From the NCBI GenBank assembly GCA_025917655.1, contig CP084608.1, positions 744,001-808,000 on the forward strand: a stretch of DNA of 64,000 nucleotides, written 5' to 3'. Made by a program: the position numbers and the translations under genes. The stretch is from Chlorella sorokiniana. Lineage: Eukaryota > Chlorophyta > Trebouxiophyceae > Chlorellales > Chlorellaceae. The stretch's first letter is position 1, and the number at the start of each line of letters is the position of its first letter. A model generated the notes under the pieces. It saw nothing but the letters and a program-made list of their open reading frames with translations, was not told where the DNA came from and ran no database searches. This document shows positions 55,572 to 64,000 of this stretch, piece by piece.

Positions 55572-55712
55572 AACACGGCGTGGGAGTGTTAAGTGTGGCG
55601 GTGCCACGTGTCCAGTCTGCACATCCGCCGCACATCTGCCAAGCTGTCAGCTGGCAGGCGTTACTAGAGATTGTTAAGTCCGCTACTTGCCTGCCTTCCA
55701 TCCCAGCGACCC

Positions 55713-55735
55713 TTCTGGAACATTCTAGAAGCTTC
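55713..55735 (+). promoter_or_regulatory. Five-unit perfect heat-shock element
   Basis: TTC 55713, GAA 55718, TTC 55723, GAA 55728, TTC 55733: alternating units exactly 5 bp apart, the HSF consensus. Further units at 55756-55763 and 55776-55788. Confidence 0.8.
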
Positions 55736-55809
55736 CCGTGCGTTCTTCTACAAGCTTCCAGAAACCTCTAGATCCTTCCGGAAGCTTCTACACACTTCTG
55801 TGCATCCGC

Positions 55810-55866
55810 TTCTAGAAGCTTCTCGAACCTTCTCGAAGCTTCTACAGCCTTCCTTCCAGAAGCTTC
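55810..55866 (+). promoter_or_regulatory. Seven-unit perfect heat-shock element plus three-unit element
   Basis: TTC/GAA units start at 55810, 55815, 55820, 55825, 55830, 55835 and 55840 without a mismatch; a further TTC-GAA-TTC set starts at 55854. Confidence 0.85.
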
Positions 55867-56102
55867 CATTGCTCACCTAATCCCGGTGTAGGGGCTCACC
55901 AGAGGCTTACCTAATCCTGGTGCGGGGGCTCACTAGGGGCTCACCAAATAGTGCTGTGCATGCTTTGACTTTCTACCTGGCGGCCTACTTAACAGGCCTC
56001 TCGCCCCCACTCGCAACCATTCTATCCTTTTCTTTCAGCCTTTCTCAACAGCAGCCTCCTCTTGTAACCTCCAGCCCTACTTGAGCGCCTTCATCTCAAC
56101 AG

Positions 56103-56644
56103 CTGTGCGGTCCGCCGCTCCACTGTCAGAAACTTAGGCAGCATATCGTCGATGCTGAGATCCTGGTCGCTGCTTGTAAGCACCGTGCTGATCATGCCAT
56201 AAGCCGGTGGAAGGCCCGCCAGAAACTGTAAAGCGACTTCCGAGTCCTTTACTTCATCGCCAGCTGCTCGTAGCTGGGTCTGGATCTCCTTTGCCCGTGC
56301 CGCATAGACTGTAAGCGGCTCTGTCGGGCTGAGCTTGAGCTGAGTGAGCTCCCGTCGCAAGATGAGCTTGCGAGCGTTGGTCTTGGCCTCATACGTGGTC
56401 TTCAGTGTCTTCCACGCACTCTTGGCTGTCGCGCACTGTCCCACCGTTGTCAGGTGATGATCCTTCACGTGCAAGATGATCTGCGCCAGTGCCCTCTGGT
56501 CCCGATCTGAGGAGACGGTGTCCTCCGAGATCGCACTCCAAAGTCCTTGGAGATGAGCAGCGCACGCATGCGAATGCTCCATGTGGCGTAGTTGTCCACG
56601 TCCGGGCGTTCGACGGTGAGCTTGTCCTCCGCTGCCGTCGCCAT
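56103..56644 (-). pseudogene. Copia gag fragment (third family, gag C)
   Basis: Minus-strand UBN2-type gag from MATAAEDKLTVERLDVDNYATWSIRMRALLIS, then WSAISEDTV, AKSAWKTLKTTYEAKTNARKLILRRELTQLKL and DLSIDDMLPKFLTVERRTAQLL. It is cut before the zinc knuckle where the LTR end meets it at 56102. One C is lost near 56543 relative to the second copy, which shifts the frame at ISK. Could be the gag of family B or of the heat-shock LTR family; nothing in the window decides. Confidence 0.8.
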
Positions 56645-56737
56645 GATGTACCGCCTGCTTCAGAGGGATGACGAGATGTCCAAAGCGTGTGCGTAAGTGC
56701 GCCAAGCAGAGGTGAAGGATGTGAGCGCCTTAATTTA

Positions 56738-57092
56738 TGCCCGGCTTGCGTTGGATTCTTCCTTGCCTTTTCTGACTCTTTCACAGTTTGCCTTGCTTTG
56801 CATCCTTGTCATCATGCTTTGCTTGCGTGCTTGCTTGCCATCCCGTGTGCTTGCTGCATCTTGCATCACCTCAGCGCGATGGGGGTGCGCGGGCCCGGGC
56901 TTTGACTCCCGCGCGCCGCTGGCCTGATGAGTTCCCGGTTTCGAGGGCCAGCCCGTTTCTGTCTCGCTGGCTCCGGCTGCAGCGCAGAGGTGGGCCCGTT
57001 TGCGTCTGAGTTGCATGGGCCCTATGCCCCGTCTGCGAGGGACAAGTGATTGTCCCGAAGGCAGACGTTAAACCAGTGTAACATAACATAAC
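56738..57092 (+). repeat. RepY copy 3
   Basis: Full RepY with GTAACATAACATAACAT end; sits directly upstream (in gag orientation) of the gag C leader, as at 63848. Confidence 0.8.
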
Positions 57093-57257
57093 ATTATGCG
57101 TAGTTGGGGCCCATAACCAATGTTGAGATGAAGGCGCTACCGTCTGTCGTTGGCTGGAGACGACACCCACAGCAGCGATTCTGAGCCCCAGCCCCACCGC
57201 GAGGCGACCCCGGCTTGAGTGGGCCTACGTCGCCGTTCTCGCGGCCCCTGCCAGCCC
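57093..57257 (-). repeat. LTR-end/primer-site scrap plus LINE 3' UTR scrap
   Basis: 57100-57135 reads on the minus strand as AGCGCCTTCATCTCAACA (the end of the 516-bp LTR) then TTGGTTATGGGCCCCAAC, a primer-binding site like that of family A. The rest matches the loop of the foldback at 18500-18740. Confidence 0.6.
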
Positions 57258-57612
57258 GTGCCCGGCTTGCGTTGGATTCTTCCTTGCCTTTTCTGACTCT
57301 GTCACAGTTTTGCCTTGCTTTGCATCCTTGTCATCATGCTTTGCGTGCATGCTTGCTTGCCATCCCGTGTGCTTGCTGCATCTTGCATCACCTCAGCGCG
57401 ATGGGGGTGCGCGGGCCCGGGCTTTGACTCCCGCGCGCTGCTGGCCTGATGAGTTCCCGGTTTCGAGGGCCAGCCCGTTCCTGTCTGCTGGCTCCGGCTG
57501 CAGCAGAGGTGGGCCCGTTTGCGTCTGAGTTGCATGGGCCCTATGCCCCGTCCGCGAGGGACAGTGATTGTCCCGAAGGCAGACGTTAAACACGTGTAAC
57601 ATAACATGACAT
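57258..57612 (+). repeat. RepY copy 4
   Basis: Full RepY, ending CACGTGTAACATAACATGACAT. Confidence 0.8.
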
Positions 57613-58108
57613 ATAAGTAGGGCTGGAGGTTACAAGAGGAGACTGCCCATGAGAAAAGCTGAAAGAAAAGGATGGAATAGTTGCGAGTGGGGGCGAGAGG
57701 CCTGTTAAGTAGGCCGCCAGGTAGAAAGTCAAAGCATGCACAGCACTATTTGGTGAGCCCCTAGTGAGCCCCTGCACCAGGATTAGGTAAGCCTCTGGTG
57801 AGCCCCTACACCAGGATTAGGTGAGCTTTGGAAGCTTCTGGAAGGAAGGCTGTAGAAGCTTCGAGAAGGTTCGAGAAGCTTCTAGAAGCGGATGCACAGA
57901 AGTGTGTAGAAGCTTCCGGAAGGATCTAGAGGTTTCTGGAAGCTTGTAGAAGAACGCACGGGGAAGCTTCTAGAATGTTCCAGAAGGGTCGCTGGATGGA
58001 AGGCAGGCAAGTAGCGGACTTAACAATCTCTAGTAACGCCTGCCAGCTGACAGCTTGGCAGATGTGCGGCGGATGTGCAGACTGGACACGTGGCACCGCC
58101 ACACTTAA
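57613..58108 (-). repeat. 516-bp LTR with heat-shock elements (copy 2, reverse)
   Basis: Reverse copy of 55587-56102, from TTAACA at 58103-58108 back to CCCTACTT, lacking the last ~20 bp. The seven-unit array is intact: GAA 57855, TTC 57860, GAA 57865, TTC 57870, GAA 57875, TTC 57880, GAA 57885. TGTAA signal retained (TTACA at 57630). Confidence 0.8.
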
Positions 58109-58670
58109 CAAACATGCGCCGGCTGGACGGCACCTATGCTGAGTGGTTCCGTGGCCGCGACACCTCCCTCCGTATGGGCCAGTTCAAAGCGCGGTGGACC
58201 CACCACAGGGGCGCGCTTTGTGTTGTGGAGGCGGGTGCTATGTTATGTTACACTGGTTTAACGTCTGCCTTCGGGACAATCACTGTCCCTCGCAGACGGG
58301 GCATAGGGCCCATGCAACTCAGACGCTATGCGGTTGCGCTTCAGCCTGTCCCACCCGGTGGCCGCGCCAGCGGAGGGCCCTTCTGCGTCTCGGGTGCCTG
58401 CAATTGCCCCTGCGTCCTGCCTTGGTCCCTTGCCCCCTCCACGCCTGCAGCTCTCCCCTGCCTCCGCTCGCCCTGGTGGAGCCTCGCCTGCGGCTATCCC
58501 TCCGGCGGGGCCGCTGCTGGGTACGGAGCGTCAAGGCGGGACAGCCCCTTCAGGCGGCGAGGCAGCACTGGCACGGGCTGCACCACGCGCGGGCGTCGGT
58601 TGACTCTCCGCCCTGCCCTTTTCTGGCTGAGGCCCTCCTCTTCTTTGCGGGGCGCTTTCCCACGACCTCA
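58109..58670 (+). other. Unidentified coding-like segments with an inverted RepY tail
   Basis: 58109-58234 is open on the plus strand (MRRLDGTYAEWFRGRDTSLRMGQFK) with no family I recognise. 58235-58325 is the RepY end in reverse. 58326-58600 is open and Pro/Ala-rich, and 58575-58670 matches 22560-22650 inverted. These may be parts of LINE ORF1. Confidence 0.4.
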
Positions 58671-60837: not shown

Positions 60838-61555
60838 GCCATGCGATACAGCCTGACTTCTGTTCATCTTTACATGCGCGCTGCTGGGGCTCCTTCCATT
60901 CCTGCAGGCGGCGGCAGTTGGGCGGCCGGCAGCGGCAGCGGCGATGGCGGCAAGTGCGTGTGTAGTGGCGCGGCGGGTGATGGGCGTTCGCCACCGTGTG
61001 TGGCAACGTGCCGGCGGGGTCCGCCCGCCCCCGCCCGGCTTGCCTTGCGGCACCCCGCGCCGCCGGTCCTAGCGGGCCGGCAGGCACACCTGCGGAGCGC
61101 GTACATGCCCTTGCTGTCGGTAGTCGTGTGCCCGCTAGCCCTCGGCTTGCCCCGTCCTTGCTCTTTGCATCCATTGGTTGACGGTTCCCCAGCGCTCGGC
61201 TCCTGCGTTGACTTGTCCCTGTTCCCAGGGCTCCCTCCACCACGCTTCCACACTCGATTTCCTCGCCCCTTTCTGAGTGGCTTGCACCTTCCCTTTCCAT
61301 GGCTCCCCTCCTTTTCTTAGCCTGCCCCCTCCTGGACGCCCCCTTCTCCCTGTCCCAGTACGCCCCCCCCTTTTTTGTCTTGGCCTGGTTGCCTTTGCGT
61401 CTCTTCCGTGGTGGGTTGCTCCATCCTCGCCTCGCGTCTTTCAGTTCTTTGCCTTGCCCTGTTGTGCCGCTGCCTGCCCCAGTCTGGCGGTTGCCGGGAT
61501 CTCGCGTTTCATCTGCCTTCACAGCGACATGCCGAACACACACACACACAGCGGC
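60838..61555 (+). mobile_element. RepX copy 5
   Basis: From GGCCATGCGATACAGCC to ACACACACACACAG, where it joins RepY instead of continuing to its A tract. Confidence 0.8.
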
Positions 61556-61794
61556 CCCTGCCAGCCCGTGCCCGGCTTGCGTTGGATTCTTCCTTGCCTT
61601 TTCTGACTCTCTCACAGATTTCCTTGCTTTGCATCCTTGTCATCATGCTTTGATTGCGTGCTTGCTTGCCATCCCGTGTGCTTGCTGCATCGTGCATCTT
61701 CACCTCGACGCGATGGGGGTGCGCGGGCCCGGGCTTTGACTCCCGTGCGCTGCTGGCCTGATGAGTTCCCCCACGTCTCAAGTGTAAGAGCACC

Positions 61795-61825
<31 letters not shown>

Positions 61826-62163
61826 AGATGAGTTCCCGGTTTCGAGGGCCAGCCCGTTCCTGTCTGCTGGCTCCGGCTGCTGCAGGGATGGGCCCGTTTG
61901 CGTCTGAGTTGCATGGGCCCTATGCCCCGTCTGCGAGGGACAGTGATTGTCCCGAAGGCAGACGTTAAACACGTGTAACATAACATAACATAACACAAAA
62001 AAGAAAAAAAGAACAAATCTGCATACCACCCCGTGGCTGCATGCCCCATCTTGCTGTCACATGCGCGTTCGCGCTGCTGTTTGGCTGCCTCATCGGTCAT
62101 GATGCTTCGTGGCTTCGGCCTACGCTTCTTGAGATCCCCCACGTCTCAAGTGTAAGAGCACCC

Positions 62164-62204: not shown

Positions 62205-63318
62205 TGCCCGCTGAGCCCCACTTTGTTTGGCTTGTTTCTAGACGACCTTGAGCAGTGGGTGATGAGTGCGGATGGGGTTGAGCTGCCCACGCTGCGTGGT
62301 CACAGGGTCCCACCGTTGTTGTATGCTGACGACTTGCTGATCGTGTCCGTGACCGCAGCTGGGCTCCAAGCACAGCTGGGGGTGCTGGAGCGGTACTTGA
62401 GCGTTGGGGCCTGACCGTTAATGTTGAGAAGACCAAGGTGGTGGTCTTCCTCGCCTCTTCTCGCGTGGCGGCGAGGCCAGCACCACGCCTCACGTACCGT
62501 GGGGAGCGGCTGGCCACCGCCCCCTCCTTTAGGTACCTTGGGGTGGAGGTACATCAGCTACACGCGATTGGGCCCTTTGCCTGCGCAGAGTTGGGCAAGG
62601 CGGGCCCGCGGGCCTTGCACGCCATGCGGCGCAAGCTCTCCCACATTGGCATGTCTGACTTTGGGTTGCAAAGGCGGCTTTGCCAGGCTTTGGTGCTGCC
62701 TGTGGTGTCGTACGGCTGCGAGGTGTGGGCGCCGCAGTTCTTGCGAGGGGGTGGGGAGAATGCTTCCGAGCGGCTCTTGCCCTCATTCTTGCGGCACGCG
62801 ATGGGGCGCCTGCCGCAAAGCACTCCCGCTCCTGTGGTGCTGGCCGAGGCAGGGTTTTATCCCCTTGCCACTCACTGGGGCAAGCTGGTGACCCGTTTCT
62901 GGAACAGGCTGGTGGGCCTCCCAAATACGCGCGTCACCAAGTGGGCGCTCTTTGAGCAGTTAGACCTTTTGCGGGCACATAGTGGGGCAGGATAGTACTT
63001 CCTCCTCCCGCAACCGTACCTGACCGAGGTTGACAACCGTGCGCACATGGCCAGCCTGGCCAGGTTCCGCATGGGCTGTCATTGGTTGCGGGTGGAGACT
63101 AGGAGGCGCGAGGGGTTGGACAGGCCCAACCGGACCTGCCCCCACTACTCGTTGGGTGTGGTGGAGGACGAGCATCACATGGTGTTTGACTGCCCAAAGT
63201 ATGCCCGCTTGCGTGCCGATTACAGTGAGTCCCTTTTTGGGGTCGGTCAGGGTCCGCCCAGCGGTCCGTTGGCGGGGCAAGGAACCTTGGCACAGGTCCT
63301 TGCGCATGATTCGGTGGA
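62198..63318 (+). mobile_element. LINE fragment 5 (RT C-terminus and zinc-finger end)
   Basis: Begins at KQGCPLSPTLFGL directly after the A tract. YADDLLIVSV is at about 62325, the thumb follows, then the only copy here with the C-terminal part: FRMGCHWLRVETRR and CPHYSLGVVEDEHHMVFDCPKYARLRADYSESL, a zf-RVT-like C-H-C arrangement (usual first motif CPHC, here CPHY). It stops where gag C sequence joins near 63318 at shared GGTGGAAGGCCCGCC. Confidence 0.85.
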
Positions 63319-63752
63319 AGGCCCGCCAGAAACTGTAAAGCGACTTCCGAGTCCTTTACTTCATCGCCAGCTGCTCGTAGCTGGGTCTGGATCTCCTTTG
63401 CCCGTGCTGCATAGACTGTAAGCGGCTCTGTCGGGCTGAGCTTGAGCTGAGTGAGCTCCCGTCGCAAGATGAGCTTGCGAGCGTTGGTCTTGGCCTCATA
63501 CGTGGTCTTCAGTGTCTTCCACGCACTCTTGGCTGTCGCGCACTGTCCCACCGTTGTCAGGTGATGATCCTTCACGTGCAAGATGATCTGCGCCAGTGCC
63601 CTCTGGTCCCGATCTGAGGAGACGGTGTCCTCCGAGATCGCACTCCAAAGTCCCTTGGAGATGAGCAGCGCACGCATGCGAATGCTCCATGTGGCGTAGT
63701 TGTCCACGTCCAGGCGTTCGACGGTGAGCTTGTCCTCCGCTGCCGTCGCCAT
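63319..63752 (-). pseudogene. Gag C fragment, second copy
   Basis: Same gag as 56103-56644, in frame from MATAAEDKLTVERLD at 63752 to LAGLPP, with ISKGLWSAISEDTV intact (the base missing at 56543 is present). Truncated at the LINE junction. Leader 63753-63847, then RepY (63848 to window end). Confidence 0.85.
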
Positions 63753-63847
63753 GATGTACCGCCTGCTTCAGAGGGATGACGAGATGTCCAAAGCGTGTGC
63801 GTAAGTGCGCCAAGCAGAGGTGAAGGATGTGAGCGCCTTAATTTATG

Positions 63848-64000
63848 CCCGGCTTGCGTTGGATTCTTCCTTGCCTTTTCTGACTCTTTCACAGTTTGCC
63901 TTGCTTTGCATCCTTGTCATCATGCTTTGCTTGCGTGCTTGCTTGCCATCCCGTGTGCTTGCTGCATCTTGCATCACCTCAGCGCGATGGGGGTGCGCGG
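63848..64000 (+). repeat. RepY copy 5 (cut by window edge)
   Basis: First 153 bp of RepY, identical in arrangement to 56738, continuing beyond the window. Confidence 0.8.

Follow-up and report, generated by a model that had tools for sequence, protein, structure and literature searches.

The window, the whole stretch of 64,000 nucleotides that was analysed (GC content, 61.5%), contains two copies of a Copia-type long terminal repeat (LTR) in opposite orientations. The plus-strand copy is 515 bp long, with the ends TGTTAAG...CTCAACA, and the second, inverted copy carries the same four arrays of heat-shock elements (HSEs). The initial annotation described the plus-strand LTR as 55587..56102; its start is correct, and its end lies one base too far. 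The inverted copy, the truncation of the copies, their centromere-like clustering and the additional HSE promoter and ORF of a sister subfamily, all described below, were absent from that annotation. The features at the locus are as follows.

55578..55586, plus strand: nine-base polypurine-tract remnant GCGTGGGAG; the same bases precede 3' LTRs after the pol end on contigs C2 and C3
55587..56101, plus strand: Copia-type LTR of subfamily A, 3' LTR only, bounded by TGTTAAG...CTCAACA
55713..55735, plus strand: HSE array of 5 units, perfect alternating TTC/GAA at 5-bp spacing
55776..55788, plus strand: HSE array of 3 units, same pattern and spacing
55810..55842, plus strand: HSE array of 7 units, same pattern and spacing
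55854..55866, plus strand: HSE array of 3 units, same pattern and spacing
56103..56645, minus strand: copia-type gag fragment (Retrotran_gag_2, PF14223, 4.6e-30 on 56100-56645)
57107..57137, minus strand: putative primer binding site TTGGTTATGGGCCC (57107-57120) and the last bases of the minus-strand LTR
57615..58110, minus strand: second LTR copy from the LTR search (query bases 1-496, 97% identical)
57831..57985, minus strand: HSE arrays of the second copy at 57831 (3 units), 57855 (7), 57909 (3) and 57963 (5)

The sequence upstream of GCGTGGGAG is another repeat, and the plus-strand copy is therefore a 5'-truncated element. The assignment of LTR bases 1-81 to internal sequence, as might be read from the many copies that match only from base 81-82, was rejected because the copies on C2 and C3 start at base 1 directly after the polypurine tract. 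The first LTR bases of subfamily B and C copies differ from those of the window LTR. The gag fragment that adjoins the plus-strand LTR comes from an element of this family that lies on the minus strand and is cut by the plus-strand LTR. The minus-strand LTR is interrupted near its end by an inserted repeat that separates its last bases from the LTR body, and these bases are followed by TTGGTTATGGGCCC. As a putative primer binding site, TTGGTTATGGGCCC resembles the initiator-tRNA anticodon-arm site known from Drosophila copia; for the tRNA donor, a genome-wide search with a contiguous 15-base anticodon-stem pattern yields 0 matches. The window copies show no evident target duplication. They comprise only LTRs and gag, neither is a complete element, and both are truncated and presumably non-autonomous. 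Three stretches of the window, at about 56738-57100, 57241-57614 and 61551-61992, are copies of a repeat (about 94-97% alike) that terminates in an (AACAT)n-like stretch; the repeat is inserted in the minus-strand LTR and leader and may represent a non-LTR element's 3' end. The family leader and gag start occur once more on the minus strand at 63312-64000, 99.6% identical to 56205-56892.

The four arrays of the plus-strand LTR have exactly the positions and unit numbers initially read from the sequence (5, 3, 7 and 3 units from 55713, 55776, 55810 and 55854). They span the interval from 126 to 279 bp after the LTR start, in agreement with the earlier estimate of about 130-270 bp, and the runs of 5 and 7 units provide at least four adjacent nGAAn motifs in U3, as in the heat-responsive Arabidopsis element ONSEN. 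In 1000 dinucleotide shuffles of the LTR, 995 contain no array of at least three units and 5 contain one of exactly three, so that none exceeds three units, as the claim of an array far beyond chance had anticipated. Whole-window shuffles (n=50) generate 0.06 three-unit arrays per shuffle and none longer. Beyond the two LTR copies, no further array of at least three units was found in the window. A chance origin of the arrays is ruled out by the shuffles together with the composition-based expectation given below.

Long perfect HSE arrays are nearly exclusive to this family. The genome searched is the window's own assembly (38.8 Mb, 15 contigs), and copy counts from the genome searches, which score the best candidates only, are lower bounds. 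Five-unit matches on both strands number 77, of which 73 are located in family LTRs and 4 in an internal promoter of subfamily B, and the reversed control pattern gives 0. At four units, 55 distinct TTC-phase sites are present, 51 in LTRs and 4 in the internal promoter (50 placed directly and the other 5 from equal counts in family loci), with 1 match for the reversed control. The window base composition predicts about 0.015 five-unit and 0.65 four-unit sites (the latter figure halved because the site is palindromic). Three-unit matches are also concentrated, with 252 of 311 inside the analysed family loci (269,502 bases, 0.7% of the genome). The 59 outside are fewer than the 115 expected by composition and the 159 of the reversed control, and the possibility that long perfect HSEs are common in this genome was rejected on these counts.

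The LTR query returns at least 39 match pieces, on C2, C3, C4, C5, C6, C7, C9, C10 and C12. Twenty-five U3 pieces (20 distinct) were aligned and assigned by visual inspection to five working subfamilies, A to E. Counting arrays of at least two units, each A and B row contains 20-21 units, and all 12 have at least one seven-unit run; the six C rows contain 15-17 units, the five D rows 10-20 and the two truncated E rows 8. Many family copies are truncated. A subfamily B copy on C4 encodes Retrotran_gag_2, rve and RVT_2 in this order between LTRs. The family belongs to Ty1/copia, with integrase upstream of RVT_2 and a copia-type gag, and the Copia-type label initially given to the window LTR holds for both the adjoining gag fragment and this related copy. 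The LTR ends (TG...CA) and 5-bp target duplications are likewise those of Ty1/copia; CAGAG flanks the outermost LTRs of the C4 tandem element, and CATAA surrounds an LTR on C12. The C4 subfamily B copies form a tandem LTR-internal-LTR-internal-LTR arrangement, and one more LTR lies beyond an internal part that is interrupted. Over 422-423 aligned bases, four LTRs of this arrangement show 0-2 substitutions relative to one another; the alignments contain 0-23 gap columns, and one copy is 23 bases longer than the others. These near-identical LTRs and their CAGAG flanks indicate that the family moved recently. The arrays are thus present in copies other than those of the window, including the young tandem ones; their absence from intact copies would have told against the initial annotation.

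The arrays are made of similar short words (GAAGCTTC recurs), which is what would be expected if a short palindromic or tandem repeat (AGAAGCTTCT-like, with a period of about 10 bp) had expanded in U3 and left them as a neutral by-product; the HSE spacing would then be accidental, and heat-shock factor (HSF) would have no part in it. The diverged subfamilies bear on this explanation. By BLAST, subfamily D aligns to the window LTR only in the HSE block (query 122/132-282, 78-87%) and in a shorter stretch (query 358-453), the HSE block being the longest alignable stretch. In a simple neutral simulation, random substitutions were introduced into A or B fragments up to the observed distance, and units were counted in arrays of at least three; the simulation leaves out the tree, mutation bias and gene conversion. 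Two D rows, C10 and C3_2047, which are 27-32% diverged and differ in their spacers, keep 18 and 14 units, respectively, against neutral means of 1.0-1.8, and these counts are reached in 0 of 5000 runs in each of six comparisons. In a second series, which covered all 10 distinct rows of subfamilies C, D and E with 1000 runs for each of two references, the two rows again give 0 of 1000. The other rows lie closer to neutral decay, and several C, D and E rows fit it: the 6 units of a third D row are reached by 36-38 of 1000 runs, the 15 units of three C rows by 18-33, the 9 and 12 units of the other two C rows by 99-321, and the 6 units of the E rows by 52-83. Unit columns are less variable than the other U3 columns (column test; p ranges from 5e-6 to 0.006, depending on the reference row), which also argues against a neutral origin, but the contrast between units and spacers is a non-significant trend (e.g., 13/63 vs 12/34, p 0.146; range 0.14-0.61). 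Constraint on the units is strongly indicated in the two D rows by this sequence comparison and moderately indicated in some other rows; the decayed copies give no such indication. The separate arrays upstream of a TATA box in subfamily B, described next, provide a further argument against neutral expansion, which we regard as an improbable source of the arrays.

Subfamily B contains a second HSE region outside the LTR. After the pol end, arrays of 4, 5 and 4 units are followed by a TATA box (ATAAAAGG), and 67 bases after ATAAAAGG is the ATG of an additional reading frame, ORF3, which crosses the polypurine tract into the 3' LTR. Three copies on C4 contain ORF3, and one on C12 has it in damaged form. 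The corresponding regions are as follows.

L020:3559-4370, minus strand: ORF3 and HSE/TATA region, subfamily B
C4:2267413-2268127: ORF3 region, further copy
C4:2284109-2284820: ORF3 region, further copy
C12:1410987-1411940: ORF3 region, further copy

In the C12 copy, a deleted base disrupts one of the three arrays, indels occur in the ORF3 frame, and the TATA box is interrupted by an inserted LTR that lacks the HSE block, with the duplication CATAA. Subfamily A ends without ORF3. To our knowledge, a second HSE promoter before an orphan ORF is unusual for a copia element.

A Pfam search at an E value of 0.1 yields no match for ORF3. Sequence and profile searches of 5.8 billion proteins return the same three relatives, which come from short contigs of jgi/lgn sources; two are virtually identical to ORF3 over the overlap, and one is 61-71% identical. 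These relatives indicate that ORF3 is maintained outside this genome as well. Apart from indels, the copies on C4 and C12 are nearly identical, too close for amino-acid selection to be measured. The longest relative contains a middle stretch that is absent from the C4 copies. Its predicted structure (mean pLDDT 65, from 4 sequences) has a single 89-residue helix of high confidence at residues 72-160 (pLDDT about 70-96 by blocks), and the rest is disordered or poorly modelled. The predicted helix is consistent with a coiled coil, and inspection by eye gives no sign of membrane or envelope protein features in the model. ORF3 may function as an accessory protein.

The family is located in clusters of Copia elements. 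At least 89 Copia reverse transcriptase (RT; RVT_2) matches are present in the genome, and all 89 fall into one region per contig on 11 of the 15 contigs. The RT regions amount to 363 kb together, the longest spans 94 kb, and C9 has a single match. No RVT_2 match was found on C1 (5.25 Mb), C11, C14 or C15, and the lack of a match on C1 and C11 means that the clusters do not occur once per contig throughout. Among the 39 LTR pieces, 33 were tested; 14 lie inside the RT span of their contig and the rest within about 20 kb, and the six remaining pieces adjoin tested ones. The RT region of the window extends over 24991-53387. The window contains 8 other Copia RT matches and no other HSE array; HSE arrays are clearly not a general feature of centromeric Copia elements. 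Two further arrangements were observed within clusters. On C3 (2045001-2094000), two blocks about 28.6 kb apart resemble a large duplication, with LTR matches at, e.g., 2055855/2084447 and 2058179/2086776; on C5 (1463366-1474943), seven equal-score RVT_2 fragments with a spacing of about 1.9 kb suggest a copia pol-derived tandem array.

According to a study of Chlorella centromeres (PMC11005252), those of C. sorokiniana are Copia-rich, 28-104 kb long and in agreement with CENH3 ChIP-seq. By this likeness, the window is probably a centromere, and we infer a centromere identity for the clusters in general. All perfect arrays of at least five units are inside the centromere-like clusters or at most 20 kb away, and many of the copies are truncated, so the arrays could matter mainly as HSF-binding centromeric DNA, either as an HSF sink or as a source of heat-induced centromeric RNA as in human satellite III, rather than for transposition. 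This explanation does not account for the promoter position of the arrays, within the LTR as well as ahead of the TATA box of ORF3, and it is also opposed by the recent element activity evident from the near-identical LTRs of the tandem element; nothing points to a host function. It is quite unlikely, slightly more so than neutral repeat expansion.

The host genome contains a candidate factor for the arrays. At least one HSF DNA-binding match is detected, in an exon-wise search that may miss others. It contains the canonical recognition-helix sequence FSSFVRQLNTY, aligns to solved HSF domains and, by reading, continues past an intron as GFRKV. Among 11 host upstream stretches (10 HSP and 1 HSF), in a scan that possibly missed upstream exons of other HSP or HSF genes, only that of cytosolic HSP70 has HSE-like sites, namely three imperfect ones about 90-240 bp before the ATG (vs 1.2 expected over all 11). 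The single positive stretch and its imperfect sites lend no support to host use of long perfect HSEs. The genome also yields 41 chlorophyll a/b-binding exon matches, and the best solved matches of a CP26 exon are 8bd3, which we take to be a Chlorella ohadii structure, and 9hd7. These light-harvesting matches identify the host as a green alga. The size of the genome, the GC content of the window and the arrangement of repeats tentatively suggest Chlorella or a relative.

The algal family shares with ONSEN (ATCOPIA78) its Ty1/copia type and LTR HSEs with adjacent nGAAn motifs of class 4P or better, as described in the consulted part of PMC5059998, in which HSF-driven heat activation of ONSEN is the model. 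The parallel drawn in the initial annotation is sound as a working analogy; ONSEN is likened here as a way of working, apart from any sequence relationship to COPIA78. ONSEN has four adjacent motifs (PMC5059998), whereas runs in the algal family reach 7 units and each LTR has 20-21 units in total. Unlike ONSEN, the algal family is clustered in centromere-like regions, and one of its subfamilies has a second HSE promoter and an extra ORF. The same portion of PMC5059998 reports, for Brassicaceae COPIA elements, transcript rises of up to a thousand-fold with predicted four-unit heat-responsive elements (HREs) and up to a hundred-fold with three-unit HREs. It also describes LTR HSEs gained independently by TERESTRA, COPIA37 and other Brassicaceae COPIA elements, with up to six clustered nGAAn motifs in A. 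lyrata TERESTRA. The Brassicaceae arrays it presents are shorter and species-specific, whereas the algal arrays are common to several diverged subfamilies.

TCN3 of Cryptococcus neoformans is, in the part of PMC12810828 consulted, a centromere-restricted LTR element with putative LTR HSEs that is mobilised at higher temperature. It differs in being fungal and Ty3/gypsy and in having two putative HSEs, and that part describes no second promoter (PMC12810828). Copia-1_Chlorella_NS and other Chlorella centromeric Copia elements form Copia-rich centromeres (PMC11005252), which the centromere-like clusters here resemble; the main text of that paper does not contain the word 'heat'. Among the matches listed from the open-licence PMC literature, no title or abstract opening reports HSEs in an algal LTR. 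The algal family combines ONSEN-type HSEs with a clustering in centromere-like regions that recalls the centromere restriction of TCN3, and adds longer arrays and a second promoter.

The arrays most probably constitute the U3 promoter of a heat- and HSF-driven Ty1/copia family that is located in centromere-like clusters of a Chlorella-like alga and that has, in subfamily B, an ORF3 promoter. Judged from their sequence, the arrays would be bound by HSF and transcription of the family would be heat-induced. In this mechanism, the host HSF would trimerise in heat and bind several adjacent U3 sites cooperatively, and the LTR-bound HSF would drive the genomic RNA of the element; in A and B rows, the 20-21 HSE units would sit upstream of the presumed start site. 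In subfamily B, the second TATA promoter, which lies after pol and ahead of the 3' LTR (arrays of 4, 5 and 4 units), would drive a separate ORF3 mRNA. A bolder proposal, which we consider speculative, is that the heat response serves twice over as a life-cycle switch, through the LTR HSE promoter for gag-pol and through an independent HSE and TATA promoter for a long-helix ORF3 protein made only in heat. If this were true, ORF3 could act in trans, e.g., against silencing or in centromere targeting, and all of the longest perfect HSF sites of the genome would lie at or beside centromeres, which would tie heat stress to centromere renewal.

If heat drives the family, it would be an algal counterpart of ONSEN with arrays longer than the four to six motifs reported for Brassicaceae in the consulted part of PMC5059998, and HSF-responsive promoters would be present at the centromere-like regions of many chromosomes. 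An alga in which one HSF gene is detected would then offer a way to ask if distant lineages of retroelements have repeatedly acquired HSE promoters, and if heat pulses remodel centromeres via retrotransposition.
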